The notes below the pieces were generated by a model. That model searched no databases and was not told the origin of the DNA. It saw nothing but the letters and a program-made list of their open reading frames with translations. 64,000 nt of DNA, taken from positions 1 through 64,000 of the forward strand of contig JALSSV010000034.1 of NCBI GenBank assembly GCA_026984045.1. Direction: 5' to 3'. Origin of the DNA: Chromatiales bacterium. Its GTDB lineage: Bacteria; Pseudomonadota; Gammaproteobacteria; UBA6429; Thiohalophilaceae. Of this stretch, positions 15,017 through 50,670 are shown in pieces; positions within the stretch are counted from its first letter, which is position 1, and every line of letters begins with the position of its first letter. Both the position numbers and the translations under genes were made by a program.

Positions 15017-15019
15017 GAC

Positions 15020-31211: not shown

Positions 31212-31828
31212 CCCGCTTTCCGCTTCTGCTCGGCCGCGATCCGCCGTTGCAGATCCACGATCCATTTCTTCACCTCGCCATTCTCTTCCCCGGTGAGCTT
31301 CTGGTAACGCTGGTAGGCTTCGAGCGCCTGGGGCAAATCCTGCAGATAAATATCCTGGAGGATCCCCAGGTTCAGCCAGGCATTGGCGTAGTCGGGGCGA
31401 CGTTTCAGGGCCTGCCGGTAGGCGTCCAGGGCCTTGTGAAACCGGCCCTTGCGGCGCAGGGCCACGCCCAGGTGGTTCCAGGCCACCGCATCGTCCGGTG
31501 TGAGCTGCACCGCCCGTTCCAGGGCGGCCAGGGCCGCATCGGTGTTGCCGGCCTTGAGTTCCTGCAGGCCCAGGTTGAGGTGGCCGAGTGCCAGATCCGG
31601 CCATTTCACCGTCATCTGCCGAAACAGATCGATGGCCTCCTGCTCGCGGCCCGCCTCCACCGACCAGCGGGCCCGCTCGAAGGCCGCCTGGGCTGCGGGC
31701 GGCAAGGCGCCTTTCTTCGCCGCGGTGGGCGCCGGTTCCTGCGGGGCGGTGGCGCAGCCGCCCAGCCACAACACGACTACACCGACCAACAGGCCGGACA
31801 ACAGCCTTCTGAACTCAGGGCGAAACAT
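31208..31828 (-). CDS. TPR lipoprotein (GltE/AglT-like by context)
   Basis: 206 aa. Lipobox LGGC with C25, a proline/alanine spacer, then three to four tetratricopeptide repeats (ALGHLNLGLQELKAGNTDAA; AVAWNHLGVALRRKGRFHKA; ANAWLNLGILQDIYLQDLPQ). Lipid-anchored, probably at the inner leaflet of the outer membrane, where TPRs dock periplasmic partners. The start at 31828 overlaps the previous gene by 14 bases. Confidence 0.85.
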   Translation of the reverse strand: MFRPEFRRLLSGLLVGVVVLWLGGCATAPQEPAPTAAKKGALPPAAQAAFERARWSVEAGREQEAIDLFRQMTVKWPDLALGHLNLGLQELKAGNTDAALAALERAVQLTPDDAVAWNHLGVALRRKGRFHKALDAYRQALKRRPDYANAWLNLGILQDIYLQDLPQALEAYQRYQKLTGEENGEVKKWIVDLQRRIAAEQKRKAG

Positions 31829-34646: not shown

Positions 34647-36604
34647 GGCCGCGCCTCCCCGGCCGCCGGGGCGGCCTCGGCGGCCGGCGGCCTGTCCGCC
34701 GCGCGGGGCGCGCCCGGCTGCTCGTCCGGCGGCGCGATCAGATCCGCCGGCGGCGGCTGCATCTTCATGAGCTTGTCGTAGAGCCGGGCCTGGGCGAAAC
34801 GGGCCCGTACCAGGTAGCTCTTGAGCCGCGCCTGCTGGCGATCGATTTCCGCCAGGGCCAGGGTCTGCACGGCCTGTTGCTGAGCCTTGAGCGCGGCGTC
34901 CACCTGCCCTTGCAGGGTCTTGATGCGCCGGTACTGGCCACGGATGCGATCGTCGAAACCTTCGAAGGTTCGCGGTGCGATCTTCCAGGCCCGCTGCAAC
35001 GCGGCGTACTGTTTCTCGGTTTCCGCCAGGGCCTGGTCGAGCCGCTGCAGGCCCCGCTTGAGACGCCACAGACGCGGCACGAAATCCGACTCGATGCGCC
35101 AGATCAGGATGCCGTTGAAAAGGCGGTACTTCGCCTGTTCCTCTTCCAGATCCGCACCGCTGCCCAGGCGCTCGAGACGGCGGCGCACGTCGGCCAGCAC
35201 GTCGAGCCATTCGGCCTCGTCCTCGTCGGCCAGGGCACGCAAATCGTGCTCACGCTCCACCCGTTTCACTTCCGCGGCCAGCGCTGCCCGCTGGCGACGG
35301 AAGTCTTCGAGCTGCTCCAGCAACAGATCGCTGGTCACGGCCGGCAGCTTCTTCTCATAGGCAGCGCGCCGCTCCTTGAGCATCAGGGTGAACACGGGCA
35401 GGTAGTGTTCCCAGCGGCCCAGGACGTAACGCAGATACTGCAGATCCTGATGATTGCGCAGGGCGCTGCGGAAGTCGTTGGAAGCCAGCAGGCGATAGAG
35501 GTAGGGCACCGACAGGGCCGCTGGCAGGCGGCCACGGTAGATCGAATCGCCGCTTTCATCGTCCAGATTGCCGGGACGCAGGGCCTGCAACAGCTCGCCC
35601 CGGGCGACCGCCTCGCGCAGCCGTTTCAGCTCGGCGAGCTGCTGTTCGTAACGCACGCTGGCTTCGGTGTAGTGCACCAGAGCCAGCTTGGGCTTCTCCA
35701 GGCGTTCGATCGTATAGGGAATGGCCAGCAGGGATTCCTGCACCGCCGGATCCAGGGGGCTGCGCACCTTCAGCTCCAGCCACGGCACCAGCGATTCCTG
35801 CAGTCGTTCCTGCCGCGCCCGGGCCCAGCCCATGCCCAGCAACGCCTTGTTGGAAAGGGGCCCGTGCAGGCGCACCCGGGCGAAGGCCGCGGCGGCGGCC
35901 TTCGGCCGTTCGGCCCGCAACCAGGCAAAACCCAGGGCGATGTTCGCCTGGTCGCGCAGGGCCTTGAGTTCCGGGGTGGTGGCCTCCATCCGGCCCACTG
36001 CCTCCAGTTGCCGGGCACCTTCTTCCTCGCGACCGGCCTTCACCAGGGCCACCCCCAGGTTGAATCGGGCATAGGCCTTCCAGGCCCCTTCGCCGGCAAA
36101 GTCGGCGAGCACGGCGATGGCCTTGTCGTATGCCTTGCGCCGCAGATGGATGTTGGCCAGCAGGTTCCGGCGTTCGGCCTCCCGCTCGGGTGGCAGGCCC
36201 TCGCCGATCCGCTCGAGGGCTTTCAAGGCCTGATCGTACTGTCCCTGTTCATAGCGCAGGCGGGCCAGGTTGAACCACACCCGGTCGGCCACCGCCGGTG
36301 CCACCTGTTGCTCCAGGATCCGTTCGAACAGTTCGCCCGAGGGTTTCTCCAGCCCGTAGGCCAGGTAGAGGCTGCCCAGCAACAGATCCGCCTCCTCCTG
36401 CTGGCGCGGCAGACGCTGCCGCTGGCGGGCGGCCATCAGATCGGTGATGGCCGAGAAATAACGATCCTGGAAGAAATGGTAAAGCGCCAGCCCATAGGGC
36501 AGATCCTGCACCACGCCCGGCTCCTCGGCGCGGCCGGGAGCCGGCAGGAGGAGGAGGCCTGCCAGCAGCGCCGGCAGCCACCCGCGTAGAGGGTTCAGAG
36601 ACAT
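34643..36604 (-). CDS. Periplasmic TPR/coiled-coil protein of the envelope operon
   Basis: 653 aa with signal peptide (ends near GRA-EEPG). Residues 40-300 are TPR-like (LYHFFQDRYFSAITDLMAAR, VWFNLARLRYEQGQYDQALK, ARFNLGVALVKAGREEEGA); 300-600 are mainly long coiled coils (YEKKLPAVTSDLLLEQLEDF, LQRLDQALAETEKQYAALQR). The C-terminus is Pro/Ala-rich. It follows the 179-aa gene and precedes the lipoprotein scaffold by a four-base overlap. It may span periplasmic distance in the motor. Confidence 0.8.
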   Translation of the reverse strand: MSLNPLRGWLPALLAGLLLLPAPGRAEEPGVVQDLPYGLALYHFFQDRYFSAITDLMAARQRQRLPRQQEEADLLLGSLYLAYGLEKPSGELFERILEQQVAPAVADRVWFNLARLRYEQGQYDQALKALERIGEGLPPEREAERRNLLANIHLRRKAYDKAIAVLADFAGEGAWKAYARFNLGVALVKAGREEEGARQLEAVGRMEATTPELKALRDQANIALGFAWLRAERPKAAAAAFARVRLHGPLSNKALLGMGWARARQERLQESLVPWLELKVRSPLDPAVQESLLAIPYTIERLEKPKLALVHYTEASVRYEQQLAELKRLREAVARGELLQALRPGNLDDESGDSIYRGRLPAALSVPYLYRLLASNDFRSALRNHQDLQYLRYVLGRWEHYLPVFTLMLKERRAAYEKKLPAVTSDLLLEQLEDFRRQRAALAAEVKRVEREHDLRALADEDEAEWLDVLADVRRRLERLGSGADLEEEQAKYRLFNGILIWRIESDFVPRLWRLKRGLQRLDQALAETEKQYAALQRAWKIAPRTFEGFDDRIRGQYRRIKTLQGQVDAALKAQQQAVQTLALAEIDRQQARLKSYLVRARFAQARLYDKLMKMQPPPADLIAPPDEQPGAPRAADRPPAAEAAPAAGEARP

Positions 36605-36636: not shown

Positions 36637-37176
36637 CTATTCCCACACCTTGGCAACGAATTCGGGCTGTTCCTTGGTGGCGTCATCGAGGATCTTCAGC
36701 TCGATGAACTGGGGATCCTCGGTCTTGTCGATGACCACTTTCGTCGCCCGCTTGTAATTCCGATCGTTGGGTCCCTTGCCGGTGAAGAAGGCCACGATTT
36801 CATGCTTGCCCGAGGCCAGGTTGCCCACATACAGACGCTGGACCCCACCCCGATAGAGCGCCGCCGACTCCCGCTCCGTGTACAGATGCGCCGCCACCAG
36901 CTTGTCGTCGATCTTGAGCTTCACCGAATCGAGCTGGAACAGCTTGCCGGCATCCACCGACAGGAACACGCTGAACTGGGTGTTGGCCGGAAACAGCAGA
37001 TCCTCCTCGAGCAGGAACAGATCCCGGTTGAGATCGAGGACGGCCTTCTTCAGATCCTGGATGCGTTCGTTGAGGGCGGCCTGATCACCACCGTCCTCGG
37101 CAGCGCGAAGGGGCGACACGAGGCTGCCGGCGAGGCACAGCACGGCACTCAGCCAGACGAGAGGAACGATTTTCAC
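36637..37176 (-). CDS. Exported protein heading the envelope operon
   Basis: 179 aa with signal peptide (MKIVPLVWLSAVLCLAGSLV...RA-AED). The N-terminus of the mature part is a short coiled coil (LNERIQDLKKAVLDLNRDLF), followed by an immunoglobulin-like or AMIN-like beta domain (VFLSVDAGKLFQLDSVKLKI, KHEIVAFFTGKGPN). First gene of the minus-strand series that runs to 27986. No family assigned with certainty. Confidence 0.72.
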   Translation of the reverse strand: MKIVPLVWLSAVLCLAGSLVSPLRAAEDGGDQAALNERIQDLKKAVLDLNRDLFLLEEDLLFPANTQFSVFLSVDAGKLFQLDSVKLKIDDKLVAAHLYTERESAALYRGGVQRLYVGNLASGKHEIVAFFTGKGPNDRNYKRATKVVIDKTEDPQFIELKILDDATKEQPEFVAKVWE

Positions 37177-37312: not shown

Positions 37313-38311
37313 TCACGGCGGGGGCGGCCGGGCCCCCGGCCGTTGGGGGGGCATGAGGCCGGAGGAATAGTGTATCTGGCCCTGTGCATCGATGATCACC
37401 GTCTCGATGCCCGGCAGCGATTCGCACAGGGCCAGCGCCCGTTCCGGCCCGAGGACGAAGAACGAGGTGGACAATCCGTCGGTGGTGGTGGCATCGGGGC
37501 CCAGCACGGTCACGCTCATGGTGTGCCGGACCGGCCGGCCGGTGCGCGGACTGAGAATGTGATGGTAGCGCTTTCCGCCCTCGATGAAAAACCGTTCATA
37601 GTCACCGGAGGTGGAGATGGCCGTGTCGCTGAGGGGCAGGACCACGGCGATGCCGTCCCGCTGGCGCGGATTCTTCACGCCCATCATCCACGGCCGGCCG
37701 TGGTGATCGCCGAGGATCCGGCTGTCGCCACCGGCGGTGACCAGCGCCGAGCGGATCCCGCAATCACGCAGAATGGCGATGCCCCGATCCACGGCATGGC
37801 CCTTGGCGATGCCGCCCAGATCGATCCGCATGCCCTTTTGGGGCAGAAAGACCGAGCGGGTCCGGGCATCCAGGCGTACCTTGTGCCAGTCCACCGCCGG
37901 CAGGTGCGCGGCCAGGCTGGCGGCATCGGGATGGCGCGCCTTGCGAAAGTCGTAGAGATAACCGACGCTGGCGAAGGTGATGTCGAAGGCCCCACCGGTC
38001 AGCGCCGAAAAGCGCAGGGCACGGCGGATCAAGCCGAACAGCTCCGCGTCCACTGCCACCGGCGCACGCCCGGCTGCCGCGTTGATCCGGGCCAGCTCGC
38101 TGTCGTCGCGGAACGGACTCATCAGGGCATCGGTGCGGCGCATCTCGTCCATCACCCGGCCGATGCAGCCCCGGGCCGCGGTCTCGTTTTCCGCCCACAG
38201 CGACACCGCCACACGGGTGCCCATGATCGCCTGCTCGTCTGCGAGCCAGCCGGCCTGAGCCCGGAGGCCCGGCAGCAGGCAGAGCATCAGCAGGAACAAT
38301 CGCAAGGGCAT
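37313..38311 (-). CDS. apbE: FAD:protein FMN transferase ApbE
   Basis: 332 aa with signal peptide (MPLRLFLLMLCLLPGLRAQA). Transfers FMN to Ser/Thr of extracytoplasmic proteins. Motifs: MGTRVAVSLWAEN, MSPFRDDSELARIN, IDLGGIAKGHAVDRG (FAD binding) and ALVTAGGDSRILG, followed by DTAISTSGDYERFF, TGRPV and the metal-site ATTTDGLSTSFFVLG. No acceptor protein with a clear [DN]xx[ST]GA[TS] flavinylation motif is evident nearby. DUF4266, DUF3570 and TlpA genes, frequent ApbE companions, lie 10 kb away on the plus strand. Confidence 0.93.
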   Translation of the reverse strand: MPLRLFLLMLCLLPGLRAQAGWLADEQAIMGTRVAVSLWAENETAARGCIGRVMDEMRRTDALMSPFRDDSELARINAAAGRAPVAVDAELFGLIRRALRFSALTGGAFDITFASVGYLYDFRKARHPDAASLAAHLPAVDWHKVRLDARTRSVFLPQKGMRIDLGGIAKGHAVDRGIAILRDCGIRSALVTAGGDSRILGDHHGRPWMMGVKNPRQRDGIAVVLPLSDTAISTSGDYERFFIEGGKRYHHILSPRTGRPVRHTMSVTVLGPDATTTDGLSTSFFVLGPERALALCESLPGIETVIIDAQGQIHYSSGLMPPQRPGARPPPP

Positions 38312-38410
38312 GGAGCGGTTTCGATTCGGCGTGACGACGAAAACACCAAGCTGCCGGGCGCCGAAATCCGCCTGGCGGGAGGGATTGCAGCGCCCCACGC
38401 CCGAATCGTG

Positions 38411-39994
38411 TCAGGCTGGCGGGGCGATGGCAACCAGATTGTTGATGTTACCGAGTCCGTGGTTGGGGAAGAGAATTTCGAACTGGCCGGTCATGCCGTT
38501 GAGCGCCATGTAGTTCAGGATCACCGTGTTCACCAGCAGGTTGACGTTGTTGGCCGCCGGACTGGAAGAGGTGATCACCGAACCATCGGCCGTGAATGCG
38601 CCGATCTGCCGGCCCTGGATGGTGGGCTGCGGCTTGCCGTTGGGATGGTAGGCCAGGAAGAAGGACGCGGCGGTAGAGGAATTGTCACCCGTCCAGACGC
38701 CCTTGCCTCGTCCCTCCGGTGAGTTGTCGACCGTGCCGTTGCTCGACAGGGAACCATCGGAGAAGACATAGAGCATCAGCGGCTTGCCCTTGCGTGCCGC
38801 ATATTCGAGGCAGGCACCCATGCACAGGCCGGCGAGAAAATCGCGCTGTTCACCGGTGCTTCGGTCACCGGTGTGATAGTCGTAACCGCCCATGGCCACC
38901 GTACCGGCGCCGGCATAGCTGACGCCATCGGCACCGCCATCGATCACCATCTTCATCACCGAGGCGGTCTTGCGCAATTCGCGGGCCGTGCGATCGTTGC
39001 CATTGGGATCGACACCGGCGTTGGTGAAGATGGCCAGGATGTCCGGATCGTCGAGCGGATCGATGCTGCCGGCGCCGCCGAACTGCTCGGCGATATTGGC
39101 GGCGCCCACGTAGCCGCAGCGCACCAGGTTCTTGATGTCCTGATCGTTGGGCAGGCCGGTGTCGATGGAGGGTCGGGTCAGCTTCTGGTCGGAGATCCGG
39201 GTTATGGATTCCATCACCCGTACCACGTCGTCATTGGGCAGCACCGGGTTCTGGCTGCCGGTGTCCACCATGCCGGTCACGTCCGAGGGCCGGTCCACCT
39301 TGGTGGGACGCAGTTCCGGATCCATGAGCATGGCCGGGGCGATGGAGTTGCCGCCCGAATCGGTATTGCGCGAGCCGATCAGGGTCACCACCTTGCCCAC
39401 GGCCCCGGCCTTGGCGATGCCATACATGGGATTGTGGGGGTTGGTGTTGGTGTCGTTGCCGGAACGGGCCGGAATCACGATCCCGTCCACGTTGCCGGAG
39501 AATGTCGGCGTGCCGGTGTCGGTTCCCGTGGACGCGGTCTTGATGCCGCGCAGGAAGGCGCTGTCCGAGTGGAACAGCAAGCCGAGCGTGGTATCGATGA
39601 AGGCCGGATCGGCGGAGGGCAGCATGTTGTCGGGCAGCCCCATCTTGCGGTAACCCGCGGCGTTGAGAAAGTCGGCCTGTCCGCCCATGCCGCCCACCAG
39701 AACGTTGGAGCCGGCAATGTTGGCCCCGCCGGCCAGATCGAAACAGATGAAGGGAATGGTGCCGCCCGTGCTGCCCAGATCACAACCGGCCGCATTGGCC
39801 ATCTCGACGATGTCCTGACTCAGGGCCCGCGCCCGGGGCGAATGCAGCAGGCCGCCCAGCAGGCTGCCGGTCATCACCACTCCCGAACCGCTGATGAGTC
39901 CCTGACGAAGGAAGTCGCGCCGGGTGATCGGGCGGGCATGATCCGGATGCAGCAGCGGCGCATCGACGGGCAGTGCTTTGGTTTTCCTGGCCAT
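38411..39994 (-). CDS. Tat-exported protein, DUF1501-like
   Basis: 527 aa. A twin-arginine signal ITRRDFLRQGLISGSG (R25-R26) predicts folded export. The mature part begins with IPFICFDLAGGANIAGSNVL, which in spirit resembles DUF1501 proteins (export by Tat, a metal-dependent phosphatase/sulfatase-like fold); LMLYVFSDGSLSS and GYDYHTGDRSTGEQRDFL are possible active-site stretches. No haem motif. It is last of three minus-strand genes with two CxxCH-bearing partners, so it probably works in the same extracytoplasmic process. Family assignment tentative. Confidence 0.7.
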   Translation of the reverse strand: MARKTKALPVDAPLLHPDHARPITRRDFLRQGLISGSGVVMTGSLLGGLLHSPRARALSQDIVEMANAAGCDLGSTGGTIPFICFDLAGGANIAGSNVLVGGMGGQADFLNAAGYRKMGLPDNMLPSADPAFIDTTLGLLFHSDSAFLRGIKTASTGTDTGTPTFSGNVDGIVIPARSGNDTNTNPHNPMYGIAKAGAVGKVVTLIGSRNTDSGGNSIAPAMLMDPELRPTKVDRPSDVTGMVDTGSQNPVLPNDDVVRVMESITRISDQKLTRPSIDTGLPNDQDIKNLVRCGYVGAANIAEQFGGAGSIDPLDDPDILAIFTNAGVDPNGNDRTARELRKTASVMKMVIDGGADGVSYAGAGTVAMGGYDYHTGDRSTGEQRDFLAGLCMGACLEYAARKGKPLMLYVFSDGSLSSNGTVDNSPEGRGKGVWTGDNSSTAASFFLAYHPNGKPQPTIQGRQIGAFTADGSVITSSSPAANNVNLLVNTVILNYMALNGMTGQFEILFPNHGLGNINNLVAIAPPA

Positions 39995-40033
39995 GATTGC
40001 GTTTACCTCAGGCTTGTCTGGTCGTTCGCCGGT

Positions 40034-42613
40034 TCACTGAACCAGCAGGGTGGCGCTGCCGAGCATGGTGGCGCAGGCGGCCGTGGCGGCTTCCCGGGTA
40101 CGTGCCCCCGTGGTGCACGTACTGCTGTCGGTACCGCACATCTTCGACATCAGGCTGTCCAGCTCACCGCCCACGTTCGTCGCCGGCGGCTGGCTGGTCA
40201 CTTCCACGTTGCCGGCGACGTTGAGCATCTTCGTGAGCAGGGGATCGATGATCCCCTGGCGGCTGCCTTCCGCAGGCAGCGCCGCATTGAAACCGAACCC
40301 GCCGAAGAAAGCGCTGCGCAGGGAGGCATCGTTCACCAGCGCGTCACAGTAGGCCAGGGCCAGCTGGGTCACGGCCATCTGGTGGGAGGTGACGAAGGCC
40401 TCGATGGTCTCCACCGAAGGCAACTGCTGACGGTAGGTGTCGTAGACGCTTGCGACCGTTGCCCTGGGCACCCCCGTGAGCTGCGACATGCTCTCGTCGA
40501 TCTCCTCGAAGGTGCGCAGGCCGATGGCGCTGACGGGCGCCGGTTCGGGACGGGCGGGGGCCGGCGGATCGTTCTCCACGTAGGCGGTGCCCACGTTGCC
40601 AATGGTCTCGAAAGCGAGGAAGAACTCGTCTTGGTCCGGGCCGTTCTCCACCGGGATGATGGTGCCGATATCGCTCAGCACCTGTCCGGCGCCGGCCGTG
40701 TAGTTCGCGCTGTCCACCGTGGTATCGAGATAGGCGTAAGCCTGCCCCAGCGGCGCCAGATGGCCATTGATGCCAAGCCGCAGCCCCTTGATCGGTATCC
40801 CCGCGGCAGGCGTCCAGTTGCCATCGAGGTTGATGAACACCGGCCGGTAGAAACGGTAGGCGTAGTCGTCGAGCTGACTGACCTCCATCAGGATGAAGCT
40901 GTTGTCGGGCACCCCGTCCAGATTGCCCACGGAGAACAGCAGGTAGCGTTTCTCGGCAATGCCGGCATCGAAGTTCTTGGTGATCTGGGCCGGGGTCATC
41001 ACCCGGTTGCGAATGGCGAGGAAGCGCATCACGCCCTGCCAGGGATGCATCCCGGCGGCCTCGTCGCCCAGCGTCAGCAGGTAGTCGCGGGACCAGCCGC
41101 TCAGAGACTCGCCGGTGGTGTTGTCGGCGTGAACCAACTGGCCGTCCACGTAGATCTCCCGGCCCGCCGAGGAAAAATTCACCACCACGTGCTGCAGATT
41201 GGGTTTCACGGCATCCTGCAGATCCGGATCTGCCGCATCCATGGTCGAGAGGGCCGAGGCGCGGGTGCCGTCCGTGGTGTTGGAACGGTTGAGAACCTCG
41301 TAGTAGGTCGTGTGCTGACCCAGGCCCATGTTGCGGGCCGCATCCCCCGAGGAGTAGCTCAGGAGGTAGGCCTGTTCCTGGGTGACGTTCTCGGGAATCA
41401 CCCAGGCCTCGATGGAATACTGATCGATGCCGGTGCCGCCCGCGGCAGCCGTAATCATGTCATACAGCTTGCCGGCATTGCCGAGGCTCTGGGCATGACC
41501 GCCGAGGAAGCGCACGCCATTGCCGCCCACCCACTCGTAGCGGCCGCTGAGGGTGAGATTGACCGGCGTGCCGACGCCGCTCAGATCCATGACGTCCCGG
41601 CCACTGCCTTCCTTGAATTCCCAGCGGGCGATCACGTTGCTCTCGTCCCGGCCGCTGCCCGAATCGAGCAGTCCCTCGCTCAGCGTCAAGGCCCCGCTGA
41701 CCGTGAGATTGGCCGGATCCAGGCCGGTGGCCTGGATGCCGCTGGCGAAAGCGATGATGGCGTTGCGCATCTCGAGGGCGTCCGCATCGCAGGTGGACCA
41801 GCAATTGTGGAACTCGTCCCGCAGCCGCACCACCAGCCGGGAGGTCGCAACCTTGTCGCTGATGGGCGTACTCGGCGGAATGTCGCCATCACCCAGATCG
41901 ATCTTGGGCTTGACCTCGGCATAGGCCGTGTCCACGTTGGGCGAACCGAAGAAGGGGGACTGTCGGGTCGACGCCGGTGCCGTCTCCGAATGACAGGCGG
42001 AACAGTGTTGTTGCAGCAGCGGATAGACGGTGCTGGCGAAGGCCGACGAATCGGCCGGGAAGGCGCGGGAGCCGCCGGGTTCGCGGTAGGTGGGCGCGCT
42101 CAGGACCAGCCCTCCGCCACTCCCGCCACTGCCGCCGGCACCGCCATTCGCCCAGTTGGCGATCCAGTTGGTCATCATGGTGGCGCACTGGCTGTCGGTG
42201 GCCAGCCAGCAGTTGTGCCCGTTGCCAACCCGGATGACCAGGCGCGACGCCGCCGGATTGTTGAGATCGGCGACGGTGATGGCCGCATTGTAGGCCTGGT
42301 TCACGTCATCGTTGCGGGCGAAATAGGGCTCCTGTTTCGCCGCCGTATCCGGCGCATGACAGTTGCCGCAGTTGTCCTTCAGGTGGGGCCACAGCTCGGC
42401 CTGGAAATTCAGCACGCTCTGATTCTGGGCAGCCGGCCCGGAATACCCCGTGGCACCGCCACCCAGATCGGGATTGGCCTCGGTGGTCGCGCCTCCGCCA
42501 CAACCGGCCAGCAGGCCGGACAGGGCGAGCAAACCGATGCCGAAGGCGACGCCGGCCCTGCGGCGCACGCCGGCGAAACCGGTCACGAACGGATTGATCG
42601 TTGTCTTGTTCAT
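40034..42613 (-). CDS. LamG-domain lipoprotein with two CxxCH motifs
   Basis: 859 aa. Lipobox LLAGC with C38, CGNCH at 82-86 and CSACH at 204-208, each in a cytochrome-like module that also has an NCW motif (GNGHNCWLA; EFHNCWST). From about 330 a LamG/concanavalin-type jelly roll follows (VIARWEFKEGSGRDVMDLSG, YSIEAWVIPENVTQEQAYLL). The C-terminal third is alpha/beta with no clear domain. Surface- or periplasm-facing lipoprotein that probably carries two c-type haems and binds a polymer. It lies 39 bases before the Tat gene and 56 bases after the monohaem gene. Confidence 0.82.
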   Translation of the reverse strand: MNKTTINPFVTGFAGVRRRAGVAFGIGLLALSGLLAGCGGGATTEANPDLGGGATGYSGPAAQNQSVLNFQAELWPHLKDNCGNCHAPDTAAKQEPYFARNDDVNQAYNAAITVADLNNPAASRLVIRVGNGHNCWLATDSQCATMMTNWIANWANGGAGGSGGSGGGLVLSAPTYREPGGSRAFPADSSAFASTVYPLLQQHCSACHSETAPASTRQSPFFGSPNVDTAYAEVKPKIDLGDGDIPPSTPISDKVATSRLVVRLRDEFHNCWSTCDADALEMRNAIIAFASGIQATGLDPANLTVSGALTLSEGLLDSGSGRDESNVIARWEFKEGSGRDVMDLSGVGTPVNLTLSGRYEWVGGNGVRFLGGHAQSLGNAGKLYDMITAAAGGTGIDQYSIEAWVIPENVTQEQAYLLSYSSGDAARNMGLGQHTTYYEVLNRSNTTDGTRASALSTMDAADPDLQDAVKPNLQHVVVNFSSAGREIYVDGQLVHADNTTGESLSGWSRDYLLTLGDEAAGMHPWQGVMRFLAIRNRVMTPAQITKNFDAGIAEKRYLLFSVGNLDGVPDNSFILMEVSQLDDYAYRFYRPVFINLDGNWTPAAGIPIKGLRLGINGHLAPLGQAYAYLDTTVDSANYTAGAGQVLSDIGTIIPVENGPDQDEFFLAFETIGNVGTAYVENDPPAPARPEPAPVSAIGLRTFEEIDESMSQLTGVPRATVASVYDTYRQQLPSVETIEAFVTSHQMAVTQLALAYCDALVNDASLRSAFFGGFGFNAALPAEGSRQGIIDPLLTKMLNVAGNVEVTSQPPATNVGGELDSLMSKMCGTDSSTCTTGARTREAATAACATMLGSATLLVQ

Positions 42614-42669
42614 CGTCTCTTTTTCCCGAAGTCCTGGCGTGCGTTTCCGCGCTTGCTGGTCGTGTTCGT

Positions 42670-43947
42670 TCAGTTGCCCATGCAGTCCACGGCCGCTCTG
42701 GCGAAGACCCGTTTGAGGTGATATCCGCTGCTCTTGAACTCCGCCACCGCGTTGCTCAGCTCGGTATTGCTGGGGGGCCGGAAGCAGACGGTCTTGTACA
42801 CCTTCTCGACCTGGCAGGAGGCGAAGGCCTCGGTGTTGGCCAGCTCCTGACCCAGGCTCTTGGCACCGTTGCCCTCACACAGGCCGTGCGGATGGCTGTC
42901 GGCCAGGCTGCCGTCCGGGCAGGTGGGGCTCCAGCCGAAGCGGTTGCGGTTGGGACCGCGGCGCCAGTAGTTGGTCCAGTGATCGTCGGGGGTGTGATAG
43001 CCCCATTTGAAGTTGTTCTCGTTGATGTGGTACTTGGTCTGGACCCGGGTGTTCTCGCCCGAGGCGCCGTTGATTTCCGGATTGACGTTGAAATCGAGCA
43101 TCCCGGCATCCGGATCCGTCGTGTAGTTCCAGTCGTAGTAGGCATAGGCCTGTACCATCGGATCCATCCCGGCATGACAGCCCAGACAGGCGTTCATGAA
43201 GATGCGACTGTCGCCACCGGGGCTGCGCGTCACGTCGCGGCGGATGCGATCCGAAGGCCGGCTGTTGTCCTTGATGGCGTTGAGATCCAGACACAGATGA
43301 TTGATCAGGGTGAAGTTGAACATGGCCCGGTTGGTGCCGTCGATGAAGTAGGCGCGGGCGGCGGCCCGGGTGGTGAGTACGCCGGCGGTGGCGCTGGCCG
43401 GAAGCCCGGTCACGCTGCTCTGGGTCGTCTGTACCAGCACATTGGTGTCACCGAGGTTCAGGTGGGCGTTCTCGATGGCCTCGTAATGGGCATTGCTGGC
43501 GTTGCTGTAGGCGGGCGTGACATTGTTGCCCACATAGAGGATGTCGCCGCTGAGGATTTGCCGAAAATCGATGTCGTCCCGAATGATGCCGATGACCGTG
43601 GCCGTGTAGTCGTTCAAGGGCGCGAAGACCGTCTGCTCCTCGTTGGTCCAGGGCGTGATGAAATTCTTCAGGGTGACGCTGTAAAAAGCCGGATTCTGCA
43701 TGGCGATATCGGCGGCCGCCTCCGGATTGCCGGCCACGATCGCCGCTTCCATGTCATCGAGCACGGCATTGGTGGGCGGAACACCGGCGATGCGATCATG
43801 GATGCGCTTGGCCTGGCGCCGCTCGAGATCGGCGGCCGTGGCGGCGAGGCTGGTGAACACCAGGCTGACGGCGGTCAGCAGGCAGGCGAGGCGGCGACCA
43901 CGGAAACGGGCGTTCGGATGCTTGGCGATTTGCATGGCTTGGCTCAT
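42670..43947 (-). CDS. Exported protein with one CxxCH (cytochrome-like)
   Basis: 425 aa with signal peptide (RRLACLLTAVSLVFTSLAAT). One haem motif CLGCH at 254-258 in MNACLGCHAGMD. Other cysteines (VDCMGN at the end, SCQVEKVYKTVC) could form disulfides. No known catalytic domain recognised. The ATG at 43947 is preferred over 44178, whose N-terminal extension reads as translated intergenic DNA; 43935 is another possible start. First gene of the minus-strand trio and divergent from the HzsA-like gene. Confidence 0.78.
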   Translation of the reverse strand: MSQAMQIAKHPNARFRGRRLACLLTAVSLVFTSLAATAADLERRQAKRIHDRIAGVPPTNAVLDDMEAAIVAGNPEAAADIAMQNPAFYSVTLKNFITPWTNEEQTVFAPLNDYTATVIGIIRDDIDFRQILSGDILYVGNNVTPAYSNASNAHYEAIENAHLNLGDTNVLVQTTQSSVTGLPASATAGVLTTRAAARAYFIDGTNRAMFNFTLINHLCLDLNAIKDNSRPSDRIRRDVTRSPGGDSRIFMNACLGCHAGMDPMVQAYAYYDWNYTTDPDAGMLDFNVNPEINGASGENTRVQTKYHINENNFKWGYHTPDDHWTNYWRRGPNRNRFGWSPTCPDGSLADSHPHGLCEGNGAKSLGQELANTEAFASCQVEKVYKTVCFRPPSNTELSNAVAEFKSSGYHLKRVFARAAVDCMGN

Positions 43948-44446
43948 GACGATATTGGGAACTATCCCTTGGAAGGACTGTTGCATTCGGTTCGACACCC
44001 CCGCGCGGGCGGAGACGTCATCGTGACCTCGGCAACCGGTTCGGTTGCATGGGTTGGCGACAGGGGAAATTGACCGCTCAATCGTCCCGGGTTCATTCGG
44101 GTTCTGCCTCCGGAGTCGACTCGCAATCCTGTCTCCACTGGAGGACATTGCCCTTTTTGTAATGATTGTAGCGGCCATGTTGCCCGCATCGCCACCTCGA
44201 AGACATGACGGCCTTCACACTTTGGACAATTCGTCACCACCGAATGGAAAAGAATCGTTTAGACTTTCCCCAGCGAAGACGATTACCTGATTTACACGTC
44301 ATGGGATGCTATTACCTAGGTCATAAAACGACGTCTGTAACAAAAAATCAGGAATCCCGGCTGTCCGAGTTTCGAGCCGGTCGCCAGGCCGCGCCGGCTT
44401 GGGGGATTCCTCCTGAGGTCCAACCATCAATCACGTTGCCAGCATC
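43948..44446. other. 499-base divergent intergenic region
   Basis: Separates the monohaem gene from the HzsA-like gene. The stretch 44150-44345 is clearly AT-richer, as expected for divergent promoters, but no hexamer pair stands out. A 9-base inverted repeat AGGAATCCC (44350-44358) / GGGATTCCT (44403-44411) with an inner AGCCGG/CCGGCT stem could form a leader hairpin upstream of the ATG at 44447. Confidence 0.6.
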
Positions 44447-47185
44447 ATGCGCCACCATCCATTCAGTCGTTCCCCCCTCTTTCCCGGCCTCGCCCTCCTG
44501 CTCGCGGTCGTGTCACTCACCGGCTGTGGCGGCGGTTCGGCGACCGAAGGCCCCGATCCGGGCATCATCGACTACCCCATCGCCTACGTGAAACGCCCGG
44601 TGCCCGTCGACAACAACGGCGATCCCCTGCAGGCGGATCTGCGCGATCCTGCCGCCGACGCGGGGATGGGGGGGGATCTCTACATCCGCACCCGCGCCAC
44701 CGCCACCGCTTCGGAAATCAACGTCACCGGGACCGTCACCGGCGGCACGGGCGATGTCCGCGACGTGGACGTGTCCTTCGATGGCACGAAACTGGTGTTC
44801 AGCCTGCGCCTGGCGCCCACCAACGACAATCCCGAACCGACCTGGAATCTCTACGAATACGACATCGCCAGCGGCAGCCTGCGGCCGATCATTTCGACCG
44901 ATGCCGATCGTGAACTCGGAGACGATCTCGCGCCCCACTACCTGCCGGACGGGCGCATCGTCTTCGCCTCCAACCGTCAGACCACCGCCTTCAATCTGCG
45001 TGCCCGTGAAGGCACCCGCAACAGTTCCGGCAAGCCGGCCTTCATCGCCCTCGACGAAGCCCGCCGGGCCAAGGCCTTCACCCTGCACGTGGTCGACAGC
45101 GACGGCAGCAACCTGCACCAGATCACCTTCAACCCGAGCCACGATCTGGATCCGCTGGTTCTCGCCAGCGGGGACATTCTCTACAGCCGCTGGGACAACG
45201 CCAGCGGCAATGACACCGGTTTCAGCCTCTACCGGGTCAGCCCCAGCGGCGGCGACGAGGAAATCGTCTACGGCGCCCACAGCCACGCCACGGGTACCGG
45301 GGGCGCCACCGTCCAGTTCGTCCGTCCCCGTGAACTGCCGGACGGCAGCATCGTCGTCATCGCCCGGCCGCTGACCGGCACCTTCGGCGGCGGCGACATC
45401 TGGCGCATCGACGTCGAGGGCCACGTGGACAACGACCGCGCACTCGGCGGCAGCCGACAAGGCGGTGGCCAACGGCCCCTGAGCACCGGTCTCGTCACCA
45501 CCGATGGCAGTCCCTCGCCCGGCGGCCGCTATCACGACGTCTTCCCCCTGTGGGACGGCAGTGGCCGGTTCCTGATCAGCAAGGGTTTCTGCCAGGTCAC
45601 CCTCGGCGGCCAGGTGGAGCCCTGCACCCCGGGCAATCTCGCCGATCCGACAGCCGTGGAAGCACCACCCGCCTACGCCATCTGGATGTACGATCCATCG
45701 CAGCAGACGGAGAAATTCGTCGTCCCGCCGGAACCCGGCATGATGTACACCGACGTGGTCGCCGTGCAGCCACGCCGCCGACCCAGTGTCGCGGTTGGCC
45801 AGACCCCCGATCCGGTTCTCGCCGGCGACAACTGGGGCCTGTTGCACATCCGCAGCGTGTATGACATGGACGGCGTGTTCTTCGATTACGGCAGCGGCAT
45901 TCCGGATCTGACCACCATGGCCAGCAGCACGACCCCTGCCGCCAGCCGGCCGGCCCGTTTCCTGCGTCTCGTCAAGGCGGTTGCGCTGGGCGATCCCAAT
46001 GCGGGATTTCCCAATCTGAACAACGATGCCTTCGGTCCGCGCCGCAACCTGGGCATGCGGGAAATCCTCGGCTACGCCCCCATCGAGCCGGACGGCTCGG
46101 TGTTGATGAAGGTGCCGGCCAACGTGCCCTTCACCCTCGAGATCCTCGACGCCGCCGGCCGGCGCATCGGCGCCCGGCACCGCCACTGGATCCAGGTCCC
46201 GCCCGGCGAGACCCTCGAATGCAACGGCTGTCACCAGCATCCCAACGACGGCAGCACGCCCCTGCCCCACGGGCGCAAGGGCGCCGGCCCGGCCAGCATC
46301 AACCCCGGCAACTGGAACGCCACCACCCTGGACACCAACCCCAACATCTTCTTCCTGCCGGGAGAAACCATGGCCCAGGCGCGTTACAACCGCTGCATCG
46401 TCGAAAACGGCACCTGTTCGTTCTCCGCCAATCCCACGCCGCGCGTCTATCTCGCCGAGCCCGACTTCGACCTCGACTTCGAGGACTACTGGTTCAACTA
46501 CCTTTCCACCAGTGGCACACCCAATCCCGGGATCCGGCTCGCCTACGCGGATCTGACCACTTCCCCGCCCCTGGTGAGCGACTGCCTCGACGGCAGCGTG
46601 GCGGCCGACAAGCGGCACCTGTGCCGGATCATCATCAACTACCAGCAACACATCGAGCCCATCTGGTCAGCACCACGCACGGACGCCGGCGGCGTCGACC
46701 GCACCTGTACCACCTGCCACAGCACGCGTGATGCCGCCGGCAATCTGCAGGTTCCCGCCGGTCAGCTCAACCTCACCGACGACACCTCCGACTATCCCGG
46801 CGCCTTCGTCGCCAATCCCAATCAGGTCGATTCCTATCGGGAACTGCTGTTCAGCGACAACGAACTGGCCGTCAGCGGTAACGCCCTGATCTATGCCACA
46901 CGCGATGTCCTCGACGCCAATGGCAATCCGATTCTGGACGCCAATGGTCAGCCGCTGCAGGAACCCATCCCCGTGTCCCCCTCCATGTCTGTCAACGGCG
47001 CCCGCGCCAGTTATTTCATGGAGAAGCTGACAAATACCGAATTGAACGCCGGTCGCCCGCTCAGCGGGACCACCGATCACTCCGGCTGGCTCACCGAGGC
47101 AGAGCTGAAACTCATCGCCGAGTGGCTGGACATCGGCGCCCAGTATTACAACAACCCCTTCGATCCCGGCGCGCCCACCAATTGA
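44447..47185 (+). CDS. HzsA-related propeller lipoprotein with two CxxCH motifs
   Basis: 912 aa lipoprotein (TGC, C27). Residues 90-470 are a PD40/TolB-like beta-propeller (DVSFDGTKLVFSLRL, YLPDGRIVFASNRQT, VVDSDGSNLHQITF). Residues 520-640 contain MREILGYAPIEPDGSVLMKV-PANVPF and ECNGCHQHP (haem motif 592-596). Residues 740-900 hold TCTTCH (754-758). This order (propeller, haem domain, second haem domain) is that of hydrazine synthase subunit alpha, which has two c-haems. A general name 'HzsA-related' is safe; hydrazine chemistry is not claimed because HzsB/C partners are absent. It may be a surface multihaem redox enzyme. Confidence 0.8.
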   Translation: MRHHPFSRSPLFPGLALLLAVVSLTGCGGGSATEGPDPGIIDYPIAYVKRPVPVDNNGDPLQADLRDPAADAGMGGDLYIRTRATATASEINVTGTVTGGTGDVRDVDVSFDGTKLVFSLRLAPTNDNPEPTWNLYEYDIASGSLRPIISTDADRELGDDLAPHYLPDGRIVFASNRQTTAFNLRAREGTRNSSGKPAFIALDEARRAKAFTLHVVDSDGSNLHQITFNPSHDLDPLVLASGDILYSRWDNASGNDTGFSLYRVSPSGGDEEIVYGAHSHATGTGGATVQFVRPRELPDGSIVVIARPLTGTFGGGDIWRIDVEGHVDNDRALGGSRQGGGQRPLSTGLVTTDGSPSPGGRYHDVFPLWDGSGRFLISKGFCQVTLGGQVEPCTPGNLADPTAVEAPPAYAIWMYDPSQQTEKFVVPPEPGMMYTDVVAVQPRRRPSVAVGQTPDPVLAGDNWGLLHIRSVYDMDGVFFDYGSGIPDLTTMASSTTPAASRPARFLRLVKAVALGDPNAGFPNLNNDAFGPRRNLGMREILGYAPIEPDGSVLMKVPANVPFTLEILDAAGRRIGARHRHWIQVPPGETLECNGCHQHPNDGSTPLPHGRKGAGPASINPGNWNATTLDTNPNIFFLPGETMAQARYNRCIVENGTCSFSANPTPRVYLAEPDFDLDFEDYWFNYLSTSGTPNPGIRLAYADLTTSPPLVSDCLDGSVAADKRHLCRIIINYQQHIEPIWSAPRTDAGGVDRTCTTCHSTRDAAGNLQVPAGQLNLTDDTSDYPGAFVANPNQVDSYRELLFSDNELAVSGNALIYATRDVLDANGNPILDANGQPLQEPIPVSPSMSVNGARASYFMEKLTNTELNAGRPLSGTTDHSGWLTEAELKLIAEWLDIGAQYYNNPFDPGAPTN

Positions 47186-47342
47186 CCGGCCAGGCGACTG
47201 ATCCACGAACTGCCGCACGCCCCGACCCGCCATTCCCGGTATAATCACCGGGAATCGGGGTCCGGGAAGCTGGCATACCGGGCGGAAACAGACAGCATTG
47301 CGATGAAAGGTCGTTTTGCCGGGGCACCGCGGCAAATACATC

Positions 47343-48095
47343 ATGCGAATCCAATTTCTCTGGTTGGTGATCCTGGCCCTCTGGGTCACAGCGATGCCCC
47401 GGGCCGAGGAAACGGCGCCGGAATACGTGCGCATCGCCGATCCCTACCTCGAACTGCACACCGGTCCCGGCCAGGGCTATCCGGTGTTCTACGTGGCCGA
47501 GCGGGGCGAGGAAATCGCCATCCTGCGGCGGCACACCGACTGGTTCCGGGTGCGCACCCGGCGCGGCAAGGAGGGCTGGGTCCATCGCGATCAACTGGAG
47601 CGGACCCTGAGCCTGGGCGGCGAGAAGGTGAAACTGGCCACCACCACCCTGGAATCCTTCAGCGAACGGCGCTGGGAAATCGGCGCCACCGGCAGCGACT
47701 TCGGCGGCGCGGCCATGCTCGGCCTCTATGGCGGCTATGCCTTCAGCAAGAACCTCTCGGCCGAGCTGGGCCTGGCCCAGTCTTTCGGCAACATCTCCAG
47801 CACCCTGTCGCTCACCGGGCGGCTGGTGGCCCAGCCCTTTCCCGAATGGCGCTATTCGCCGTTCTTCAGCCTCGGGACCGGGTTTATCGAGATCAAGCCC
47901 AAGGCCACCATCATCTACCCGGAGCGCACGACCAACCAGATGAGCTACATTGCCCTCGGGCTGCGCACCTGGCTGACGCGGCGTTTTCTGTTCCGCATCG
48001 AATACGACTATTACACGATTTTCTCGGCCACCAACGACCGGGACGACAACGAGGAACTCAACGGATGGCAAGCCGGTTTCGCAGTCTTCTTCTGA
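47343..48095 (+). CDS. SH3-domain outer-membrane beta-barrel protein
   Basis: 250 aa with signal peptide (ends MPRA-EET). Residues 35-85 are a bacterial SH3 (SH3_3) domain (ELHTGPGQGYPVFYVAERGE, WVHRDQLER). The remainder is a small eight-stranded-type barrel (GGYAFSKNLSAELGLAQSFG, SLGTGFIEIKPKA) ending in F-F. The SH3 part may bind peptidoglycan or a partner peptide. The next gene overlaps it by 31 bases. Confidence 0.78.
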   Translation: MRIQFLWLVILALWVTAMPRAEETAPEYVRIADPYLELHTGPGQGYPVFYVAERGEEIAILRRHTDWFRVRTRRGKEGWVHRDQLERTLSLGGEKVKLATTTLESFSERRWEIGATGSDFGGAAMLGLYGGYAFSKNLSAELGLAQSFGNISSTLSLTGRLVAQPFPEWRYSPFFSLGTGFIEIKPKATIIYPERTTNQMSYIALGLRTWLTRRFLFRIEYDYYTIFSATNDRDDNEELNGWQAGFAVFF

Positions 48096-48736
48096 CGGGT
48101 CTTCTGGCCTGCGGGCTCCTGGCAGGCGGCCTGCCCGCCTCGCGGGCCGCCGAGACGGCGCCCGACGACAAGGAACTCTCGCCCATCATCGAACCCGAAG
48201 TCGCGCGGCGCGAGTTTCACGAGGCCCGTATCGACACCGAGGATTTCGAGGTCACCGCCTTCGCGGGCATCCTGGGCATCGAGGATTTCGGCAGCAGCCC
48301 GGTCTACGGCGCCCGCCTGGCCTATCACATCGCCGAATGGCTGTTCGTGGAGGGCGCATTGGGCATGGCCACCGCCGGCAAGACCAGTTACGAGGCCATC
48401 ACCGGCACCAACAACCTCAGCGACGAAGAACGCAACCTCACCTATTACAACATCGCGGTGGGGTTCAACCTGCTGCCCGGCGAGGTCTATCCTTCCCGCC
48501 ACACCACCTTCAACTCCGATTTCTATCTCATTGGCGGTGTCGGCAGCACCCGCTTCGCCGGCGCCGACCGCTTCACCTTCAATTTCGGTGTCGGCTACCG
48601 GTTGCTGTTCACCGACAGCTTTGCCCTGCGCATCGATTTTCGTGATCACGTCTTCAACATGGACGCGGCCGTTCTCGGTCAGGACAAGACCAGTCAGAAC
48701 CTGGAACTGACCGCCGGCCTTGCCTTCTTCTTCTGA
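48065..48736 (+). CDS. Outer-membrane beta-barrel protein
   Basis: 223 aa. Signal peptide MASRFRSLLLTGLLACGLLA...RA-AET, then strands typical of an eight-stranded barrel (GARLAYHIAEWLFVEGALGM, RFTFNFGVGYRLLFTDSFAL) with terminal aromatic FFF. GAGGA nine bases upstream of its ATG lies inside the previous gene, so the two are translationally coupled. Probably partner of the SH3 barrel. Confidence 0.78.
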   Translation: MASRFRSLLLTGLLACGLLAGGLPASRAAETAPDDKELSPIIEPEVARREFHEARIDTEDFEVTAFAGILGIEDFGSSPVYGARLAYHIAEWLFVEGALGMATAGKTSYEAITGTNNLSDEERNLTYYNIAVGFNLLPGEVYPSRHTTFNSDFYLIGGVGSTRFAGADRFTFNFGVGYRLLFTDSFALRIDFRDHVFNMDAAVLGQDKTSQNLELTAGLAFFF

Positions 48737-48753
48737 ACCACAGGAGTGACATC

Positions 48754-49263
48754 ATGCCAATTCCGTTTGTCCGCCTTTCGCTTCGCCTGCTGCTGACCGT
48801 CCTGCTGCTGACCACCCTGGCAAGCGTGCGCGCCGAGGCCCTCAGCGGCCCGGCCCCCGACTTCACGCTGCGCAGCAACACCGGCAAGAACCTCAAGCTC
48901 AGCGAATTCCGTGGCCAGGTGGTGCTGCTCAACTTCTGGGCTTCCTGGTGTGGCCCCTGCCGCCAGGAGATGCCGGCCCTCGACAAGCTGCACAAGCGCT
49001 ACCGCAAACTCGGTTTCACGGTGCTGGGTGTGAACGTGGAGGAAGACTCCAGGCAGGCCAGGCAACTGCTCAAGGAGGTGAAGGTCAGCTTCCCCATCCT
49101 CTTCGACACCCGGAACCAGGCCAGCCAGCTCTATCACGTGGAGGCCATGCCCACCACCGTGATCATCGATCGTGACGGCAACATGCGCTACCTGCACAAG
49201 GGCTACAAGCCGGGCGAGGAGCGCCTCTACAGGAAATGGGTCAAGCAACTGATCCGGGAGTGA
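48754..49263 (+). CDS. TlpA-type periplasmic thioredoxin
   Basis: 169 aa with signal peptide (ends VRA-EAL). Redox centre WCGPC (W65-C69) within LLNFWASWCGPCRQEMPALD, and the cis-proline MPTTVIIDRDG. Family role: keeps apo-cytochrome or other periplasmic thiols reduced for haem attachment. Here it follows two barrels and precedes DUF4266/DUF3570, within a region of CxxCH proteins. Confidence 0.92.
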   Translation: MPIPFVRLSLRLLLTVLLLTTLASVRAEALSGPAPDFTLRSNTGKNLKLSEFRGQVVLLNFWASWCGPCRQEMPALDKLHKRYRKLGFTVLGVNVEEDSRQARQLLKEVKVSFPILFDTRNQASQLYHVEAMPTTVIIDRDGNMRYLHKGYKPGEERLYRKWVKQLIRE

Positions 49264-49268
49264 AGCCC

Positions 49269-49484
49269 ATGCGTCCCCTGTTCATCATCCTGTCCCTGCT
49301 GTGGCTGGCCGGCTGCAGTATCGAACCCTGGGTCAAACCCTACGAACGGGCCCACCTGGCCGATCCCATCATGAGCTTCAGCCGGGATCCGGTGGCCGAC
49401 AGTTACATCAACCACGTGCATGAGGCACGCGAGGGCGCCCGCGGCGCCGGCGTGGCCTCCGGGGGTGGCTGTGGCTGCAACTAG
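49269..49484 (+). CDS. DUF4266 lipoprotein
   Basis: 71 aa. Lipobox LAGC with C16. The conserved DUF4266 signature KPYERAHLADPIM is followed by the glycine/cysteine-rich tail GVASGGGCGCN. The family is known for neighbourhoods with DUF3570, thioredoxin and ApbE. Start codon 5 bases after the TlpA stop. Confidence 0.88.
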   Translation: MRPLFIILSLLWLAGCSIEPWVKPYERAHLADPIMSFSRDPVADSYINHVHEAREGARGAGVASGGGCGCN

Positions 49485-49491
49485 CCCGGAT

Positions 49492-50670
49492 ATGGTGCCA
49501 AAGCACCGGCCCTGGCGGCTTCTCGCACGGGCCGGCCGCCTTCTGCTGCCGGCACTACTGCTGGGCTGGAGCCTCGGCCTGCGCAGCGCCATCCTGCCTG
49601 CGGATCGGGCCGACGCCCTCTACCACGCCTATGACGGCGGCGGGGTACAGGTCAACGGCCCCTCGATCCTGGTGCGCAAATCCATCGGCACCAGCGTCTC
49701 GGCCTCCTACAATTACTATGTGGACAACGTCTCCAGCGCGTCGGTCGACGTGCTCTCCTATGCCAGCCCCTACACCGAGCAGCGCACGGAACAGTCGGTC
49801 AACGTCGACTACCTGCACGGCAAGAGCACCATGAACCTTTCGTACACCAACAGCGACGAAAGCGACTACGTCTCCGACACCTACAGCTTCACCCTCAGCC
49901 AGGATCTGTTCGGCGATCTGACCACCGTGGCCCTGGGCTACAGCGTCAGCGACAACACCGTGGGGCGCAACAACAGGAAAACCGGCACCACCCAGATCGT
50001 CGGTACCGCCAGGGTCCAGGGGTGGCGACTCAACGTCTCGCAGATCCTCAGCAAGAACAGCCTTCTCGGCTTCACCTTCGACACCATCAGCGACGAAGGC
50101 TACCTCAACAATCCCTACCGCTCGGTGCGCTACCTTGACTCGGGCAGCGGGACGGGCTTCAGCTACCAGACCGAGGTCTATCCCAACACCCGCACCTCCA
50201 ACGCCGGCGCCCTGCGCCTGCGCTACTACCTGCCCTGGCGCGCCGCCGTCAGTGCCGGTTACCGCCTGTTCTCCGACACCTGGGGGATCCGCGCCAGGAC
50301 CTGGGAGCTGGGCTACACGCAGACCTGGCGCGATCGCTGGACCTTCGAGGCGCGCTATCGCCTCTATGATCAGACCAAGGCCGATTTCTACAGTGATCTC
50401 TTCCCCTACCGGGACGCCCAGAACTTCCTGGCCCGCGACAAGGAACTGTCCACCTACACCAGCCGCAACCTGGGCTTGGGGGTGACCTATCATTTCCTCA
50501 AAAACGGCTGGGGCTTCATCGACGATGGCACGGCCAACCTGTTCTACGACATGATCAACTTCGATTACCAGGACTTCCGCAACATCCCGGCCGGAGGTCT
50601 GGCCGGGCAGGAACCGCTCTATTCCTTCGATGCCGGGGTGATTCGGGCCTTCCTCTCCATCTGGTATTGA
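49492..50670 (+). CDS. DUF3570 outer-membrane barrel protein
   Basis: 392 aa; N-terminal hydrophobic leader, then DGGGVQVNGPSILVRKSIGT and a long run of amphipathic strands with aromatic girdles (YLHGKSTMNLSYTNSDESDY, SAGYRLFSDTWGIRARTWEL), ending LSIWY. DUF3570 proteins are large predicted outer-membrane barrels. It follows DUF4266 after 7 bases; the pair with TlpA is a conserved unit. Function unknown. Confidence 0.87.
   Translation: MVPKHRPWRLLARAGRLLLPALLLGWSLGLRSAILPADRADALYHAYDGGGVQVNGPSILVRKSIGTSVSASYNYYVDNVSSASVDVLSYASPYTEQRTEQSVNVDYLHGKSTMNLSYTNSDESDYVSDTYSFTLSQDLFGDLTTVALGYSVSDNTVGRNNRKTGTTQIVGTARVQGWRLNVSQILSKNSLLGFTFDTISDEGYLNNPYRSVRYLDSGSGTGFSYQTEVYPNTRTSNAGALRLRYYLPWRAAVSAGYRLFSDTWGIRARTWELGYTQTWRDRWTFEARYRLYDQTKADFYSDLFPYRDAQNFLARDKELSTYTSRNLGLGVTYHFLKNGWGFIDDGTANLFYDMINFDYQDFRNIPAGGLAGQEPLYSFDAGVIRAFLSIWY

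Follow-up and report, generated by a model that had tools for sequence, protein, structure and literature searches.

The 64,000-nucleotide stretch of a Chromatiales bacterium genome analysed here (contig JALSSV010000034.1; hereafter the window) carries ten genes at 37313-50670 for exported haem proteins, outer-membrane barrels and associated redox proteins. A nine-gene cluster on the minus strand, running from 37143 down to 27986, continues leftward from this block and has the make-up of an Agl/Glt motor core, giving 19 genes in total. The block and the core are almost certainly a single co-selected system, and gene linkage together with one-way co-occurrence makes it probable that the motor is coupled to the haem and redox set. 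Such a set of about 19 genes, conserved in many marine and soil gammaproteobacteria, joins a proton-driven envelope motor, kin to the one that powers gliding in Myxococcus, to exported haem proteins and suggests that the motor serves a redox task at the surface. The initial annotation of the window had proposed the ten-gene block as a system in its own right. The block is real and conserved, but it makes up only half of a larger unit; the ExbB/ExbD/TonB/TPR half had been missed. All ten genes of the block were confirmed with their strands and order, and the families named in that annotation (ApbE, LamG, HZS_alpha, the barrels, a TlpA-like protein, DUF4266 and DUF3570) are backed by Pfam or NCBIfam matches.

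A motor core beside the haem and barrel block

An HzsA-like gene is present in 35 of 96 relatives. A search of the genome collection with this protein gave at least 552 confirmed relatives, the best 80 of which were used as named loci; these 80 include tubeworm and clam endosymbionts and named strains such as Aliikangiella coralliicola M105. L numbers below denote loci and G numbers genomes. Order and strand are kept in many families, and the gene order is fixed in the fetched loci: twin-arginine-exported (Tat), LamG and mono-haem genes, then the divergent HzsA-like gene, followed by the SH3-barrel, barrel, TlpA, DUF4266 and DUF3570 genes, with ApbE and the core usually adjoining. The mono-haem and HzsA-like genes point away from each other in 72 of 72 named loci. 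Thirty-nine of the 80 are wide loci of more than 20 kb each. The four large genes co-occur in them, the mono-haem, LamG and Tat genes being present in 38 of the 39; both barrels, DUF4266 and DUF3570 are found in all 39 and TlpA in 35. The initial annotation had held that the block would be coincidental if its four large genes were not found together in other genomes or if the CxxCH motifs were not conserved; the genes keep company and the CxnCH motifs are kept. Chance assembly of the block is excluded, since dozens of diverged genomes show the same haem motifs and gene order.

The tie to the core was followed through its marker s36, a small exported protein (36637..37143, minus strand) that belongs to no Pfam family, is conserved and is present in 82 of 369 genomes of the class. 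With the HzsA-like gene called at E below 1e-40, 51 of the 52 genomes carrying it have s36, compared with 31 of the 317 that do not (Fisher p 1e-39). A second sample of 388 genomes contained 11 with an HzsA-like gene and all 11 have s36. The dependence runs one way: the HzsA-like gene almost never occurs without the core, whereas the core often occurs without redox genes beside it. In the exception, genome G073, the HzsA-like gene is truncated and the mono-haem, LamG and Tat genes are kept (L058, 8650-15778); the stretch read holds neither DUF3570 nor core genes and the core marker was not found in the genome. This is apparently a joint loss of the core and of HzsA-like function. Pairwise protein distances correlate among the HzsA-like, mono-haem, LamG and Tat proteins (r 0.76-0.90), and strongly also among the barrels, DUF3570, TlpA, s36 and ApbE, with shared species history not removed in either case; DUF3570 is tied to both sets.

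The remaining core genes all lie on the minus strand. Beyond s36 come a periplasmic TPR protein (34643..36604, weak TPR), a large TPR lipoprotein with TPR_6 and YfiO-type repeats (31815..34646), a second, weakly GltE-like lipoprotein matching TPR families (31208..31774) and sm91, a small exported protein with no Pfam match (30936..31211); the first two and sm91 are conserved in core clusters. These are followed by an AglR-like ExbB/TolQ proton channel (29942..30583; PF01618, 102.6 bits), two AglQ/S-like ExbD/TolR proteins (29437..29940 and 28900..29391; PF02472, 58.1 and 60.4 bits) and a TonB_C protein with an AgmX/PglI C-terminal (GltG/GltJ-like) tail (27986..28903; PF03544, 30.5 bits; NF033768, 78.2 bits, cut-off 40), which we assign as the putative motor-to-envelope coupler. 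One ExbB, two ExbD, TPR proteins and a TonB/AgmX-tail protein in one cluster is the composition of the Agl/Glt (Nfs) core. Equivalog level is not reached for GltG (38 bits, cut-off 650) or for GltE (NF033758, 42.9 bits, cut-off 225); we take these cut-offs to have been set for myxobacterial proteins. The gammaproteobacterial Agl/Glt "core complex" has been described as a conserved functional unit of unknown function (Luciano 2011, PMC3169522), and a basal transport machinery of the same composition as the core cluster of the window has also been reported (Wartel 2013, PMC3858216). Cytochromes, ApbE and thioredoxin go unmentioned in the former work, whereas here the core is joined to a module of haem and thiol redox proteins.

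Stand-alone motor cores (s36, TPR, ExbB, ExbD, ExbD, TonB) were seen in L067-L076, where about 10 kb was read around each s36 homologue. The core is a true module, since it also stands alone in this way, and because these copies have no constant partner genes, other cargoes or distant partners are likely. Partial combinations also occur. In L064 the core accompanies the barrels, TlpA and DUF3570 with no HzsA-like gene; the same holds for L065 within the stretch examined; and in L066 the core stands with the three left-hand genes and a small protein replaces the HzsA-like gene. Several genomes also hold the triad of mono-haem, LamG-type and Tat genes at another place, as a satellite cassette. 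The system is modular, given that the core alone, partial combinations and satellite triads all occur. In L164-L169 and L171 the satellite triads are distant from any motor, in type B genomes (described below) and others. Their LamG-type protein is in most cases shorter, with a single CxxCH; that of L171 has three. In L081 ApbE and the core are separated by a protein of 646 residues (13723-15663) whose N-terminus is signal-like and which resembles no protein of the window.

Exported haem proteins and the Tat-exported protein

The locus contains five haem motifs distributed over three proteins. The HzsA-like lipoprotein (44447..47185, plus strand) has a beta-propeller/HZS_alpha middle domain (PF18582, 57.8 bits, cut-off 26.6) and two CxnCH motifs. 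The HZS_alpha domain is found in 24 of 24 orthologues; PD40, also named in the initial annotation, is matched by 12 of the 24, with the window copy falling below cut-off. All 32 copies in the alignment keep the haem 1 motif. CxxCH is the usual form of the second motif, with CX3CH in L052 and CX4CH in L039, L046, L048 and L062; the copy in L060 ends at a contig edge before this point. The LamG lipoprotein (40034..42613, minus strand; PF13385 (Laminin_G_3), 58.1 bits) retains its LamG domain and both CxxCH in 22 of 22 orthologues and its lipobox Cys in 23 of 23. In both lipoproteins the lipobox Cys is followed by a conserved Gly-rich stretch (CGGG), which in the LamG protein is of outer-membrane type. 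The third, an exported mono-haem protein (42670..43947, minus strand), has its CxxCH in 22 of 23 orthologue rows, the remaining row being a 31-residue fragment. That CxxCH or its CX3CH/CX4CH variants are kept throughout points to selection on haem ligation. The divergent region between the mono-haem and HzsA-like genes (43948..44446) contained no sigma-70 consensus in a promoter scan.

The mono-haem protein appears to be distant kin of PSD2/PSCyt3 (DUF1585/DUF1588). PSD2 is matched weakly by 13 of 23 orthologues (best E 2.2e-6) and not by the window copy, and there is weak similarity to PSCyt3 too. Sequence searches gave no convincing solved relative of either this protein or the Tat protein, and a fold search with the mono-haem model (predicted template modelling score, pTM, 0.77) gave nothing above Z 2.5. 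PSD2 and PSCyt3 are domains of planctomycete-type (PVC) cytochromes, found beside partner families of unknown function and with carbohydrate-binding domains including LamG (PMC5615132). The window resembles those systems in its weakly PSD2/PSCyt3-like mono-haem protein, its LamG-bearing haem protein and its exported partner gene. It differs in that each part is encoded by its own gene instead of being fused as a domain, the Tat partner has no Pfam DUF and a motor core is coupled to them.

The Tat-exported protein (38411..39994, minus strand) matches no Pfam family. It had been labelled DUF1501 in the initial annotation; none of 20 members scanned matches that family and the assignment by sequence is ruled out. 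The AlphaFold model (pTM 0.79) aligns with choline sulfatase over 231 residues (VIA-align Z 11.9, root mean square deviation 4.0). The folds listed for it are sulfatases, phosphatases, phosphodiesterases, mutases and phosphoethanolamine transferases, all of the alkaline phosphatase superfamily, and the predicted fold, together with residue conservation, places the protein in this superfamily. The invariant residues are the RR of the signal, D86, D372, H374 and D413.

A proposed machine and its alternatives

The gene linkage, the make-up of the modules, the cofactor motifs, the lipoboxes and the Tat signals are observed directly, and from them we construct a proton-motive-force-driven trans-envelope machine with haem proteins at the surface, perhaps acting on an extracellular polymer. 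As a whole we regard this proposal as evenly balanced between right and wrong; its parts differ. The ExbB/ExbD/ExbD proton channel, the TonB/AgmX-type coupler and the TPR lipoproteins would together form an Agl/Glt-class motor core that spans the envelope. The two barrels, DUF3570, the CxC lipoprotein DUF4266 and the TlpA thioredoxin would make up a redox platform in the outer membrane and periplasm, its flavin possibly loaded by ApbE. The working head would consist of the HzsA-like and LamG haem lipoproteins, the mono-haem protein and the Tat-exported protein. The motor would mechanically energise or move the outer-membrane complex. Through LamG the head would bind a polymer outside the cell, most likely a glycan, and would oxidise or cleave it, with electrons running over the few haems to periplasmic carriers. 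A haem enzyme at the outer membrane is fairly likely. That its substrate is a polymer is the most speculative step and rather doubtful; the idea stems from the invariable LamG domain, the PSD2/PSCyt3-like mono-haem protein and the engagement of polysaccharides by the related Agl/Glt and Nfs machines (PMC3858216).

The barrels and lipoprotein cytochromes co-occur with a module of the kind linked to flavinylation (PMC8238504), and one could read them as a conduit for extracellular electron transfer, conducting to or from minerals or humics, which the motor extends or positions. We consider this unlikely. There is no multihaem wire in the locus, and each haem lipoprotein bears a large non-haem domain (propeller or LamG); with just five haem motifs over three proteins the system looks like an enzyme rather than a wire. 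The motor might instead move the cell's own polymer in surface or matrix assembly, the haem proteins oxidising or cross-linking it, as in the Nfs spore-coat machine. Agl-Nfs does drive deposition of coat polymer (PMC3858216), and haem enzymes on lipoproteins as well as LamG would fit such a role. In the loci read, no gene for making or exporting polysaccharide is a constant neighbour, and this reading too seems improbable.

The modules might also have no more in common than their location or their regulation, without being parts of one machine. The occurrence of the core alone and of haem triads as satellites speaks for this, as does the low correlation of LamG with s36 distances (0.18), but the near-perfect one-way dependence of HzsA-like genes on the core makes it quite unlikely. 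Several observations weigh against the proposed machine. The core is on another contig in G205 and G235, so it is not always adjacent, and s36 lies within 10 kb in just 23 of the 39 wide loci. The distance correlations carry shared species history. LamG domains also mediate protein contacts. In the Tat protein D413, which we take to be a ligand from the usual Asp-His pair, is followed by Gly414, so the pair is absent, and the protein may for this reason lack enzyme activity. The physical complex, its location at the surface and its activity, the use of proton motive force, the polymer substrate and the direction of electron flow are our inferences.

Four components are known individually: the core complex, the DUF3570 cluster, HzsA homologues and PSCyt-type proteins. 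We found no publication joining the four (searches included DUF3570 with ExbD and AglRQS with cytochrome c), which is weak evidence of novelty as subscription journals were mostly outside the coverage. It is conceivable, and we put it forward tentatively, that the proposed machine represents a new class, in which an Agl/Glt-type proton motor works outer-membrane haem enzymes and joins force with redox catalysis on an extracellular substrate. If true, this would be the function, unknown since 2011, of the gammaproteobacterial core complex in the species carrying it. As parts of one system, the Agl/Glt core, the module of DUF3570 and DUF4266 and the HzsA-like proteins outside anammox bacteria would gain a concrete candidate function. 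Should the motor and the haem head act together, the link between an ancestral motor core and gliding motility becomes testable.

The DUF3570 module and the kinship with HzsA

On the plus strand the HzsA-like gene is followed by a protein with an SH3 domain and an outer-membrane beta-barrel (47343..48095; PF08239, PF13505) and a barrel of family OMP_myx_plus (48065..48736; TIGR04565, 151.9 bits, cut-off 60). The TlpA/ResA-like thioredoxin with WCGPC (48754..49263; PF00578, 107.9 bits) comes next, both Cys being invariant among orthologues. OMP_b-brl was matched twice, and AhpC-TSA/Redoxin was matched, in the Pfam scan of the block. The DUF4266 lipoprotein (49269..49484, start also given as 49260; PF14086, 76.2 bits) has a C-terminal CxC kept in 28 of 28 loci, and the DUF3570 protein (49492..50670; PF12094, 115.2 bits) closes the series. 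At the other end of the block ApbE (37313..38287, minus strand, start may be 38398; PF02424, 283.8 bits) is intact; it is one of two ApbE in the genome, which has two FMN_bind proteins elsewhere.

ApbE flavinylates DUF3570 at two [S/T]GA[S/T] sites, and clusters of ApbE, DUF3570, DUF4266 and thioredoxin have been described (Meheust 2021, PMC8238504). The window has these four families together, including the CxC end of DUF4266. It departs from the described clusters in its AhpC-TSA/Redoxin-type thioredoxin, in the lack of a linked DsbD (none on the window contig, two DsbD_TM matches elsewhere in the genome) and in altered flavin motifs; that work makes no mention of hydrazine synthase, LamG, ExbB or gliding. 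Measured against the canonical motif of PMC8238504, neither site is retained: site 1 (49720-49760) reads D-N-V-S-S-A-S and site 2 S-Y-A-S, that is SSAS and SYAS. Site 1 is D-x-x-[S/T]-S-A-S, a Gly-to-Ser change, in 89 of 98 proteins, with Gly in four, and site 2 is usually T-T-A-S or similar; these counts come from loci that partly duplicate each other (L034 and L116, for example, are the same contig). That site 1 is so well conserved in its altered form suggests that it still matters, and flavinylation of the window DUF3570 is possible. As for another flavinylated protein in the operon, no [S/T]GA[S/T] is conserved in any of 13 alignments and this was rejected. The initial annotation had envisaged a redox machine with haem and perhaps flavin cofactors connected through outer-membrane barrels. 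A conserved extracytoplasmic haem system with such barrels stands; the flavin part is weakened, as the window and most of its relatives have altered DUF3570 sites and only 14 of the 39 wide loci have ApbE within 10 kb. Flavin-dependent iron reduction or assimilation, a role suggested for some DUF3570 clusters, is very unlikely: the canonical motifs are changed in most DUF3570 members, and the loci read show no iron transporter, their unassigned neighbours not all being annotated.

The profile of the HzsA-like family matches HzsA (5c2v chain A) with E 1.6e-22, the match covering the haem-1 domain, the C-terminus and part of the propeller, while the whole-length HzsA equivalog NF052339 scores 41.1 bits against a cut-off of 800. 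HzsA and its non-anammox homologues (PMC12758564) share with the window protein the HZS_alpha middle domain bearing haem 1, the propeller, the C-terminal segment and the second haem motif. In HzsA the haem-1 iron is bound by Tyr591, and the motif histidine and Cys303 bind zinc; Cys303 is not present in all anammox bacteria either (PMC12758564). The Tyr591 position is Tyr in none of 113 HzsA-like proteins, and where HzsA has Cys303 the aligned set has H, N, Q, F or K. The window protein differs further in being a lipoprotein and in its gene neighbours. No match to the HzsB model NF052340 was found in the 99% complete genome, in agreement with the initial annotation, nor to the HzsC model NF052341, for which the search had no working positive control. 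Hydrazine synthesis or other nitrogen chemistry as in the anammox hydrazine synthase, the reading to which the HZS_alpha domain and the HzsA kinship would lead, is extremely unlikely, because the active-site positions are not kept and the partners were not found. The HzsA-like assignment made initially therefore survives as domain kinship with two CxxCH and does not extend to hydrazine chemistry; the protein is better described as a putative HZS_alpha-domain haem protein of some other function.

In a second architecture of the locus, type B (L051, L053, L054, L056, L057, L059), the three large genes on the left are missing from this position. Three CxxCH are found in its HzsA-like protein, and a small protein comes next in the loci with listed genes. 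Type B loci have the series from ApbE through TonB on one strand, as read directly in L057, where it is unbroken. The small protein lies between the HzsA-like and SH3-barrel genes in L053 (12482-12796), L057 (6372-6827) and L054 (7725-8249), and at the same position in L059 (7315-7857) and L051 (8228-8695). The copy in L053 carries CSASGCH, a CX4CH motif that is possibly another haem site.

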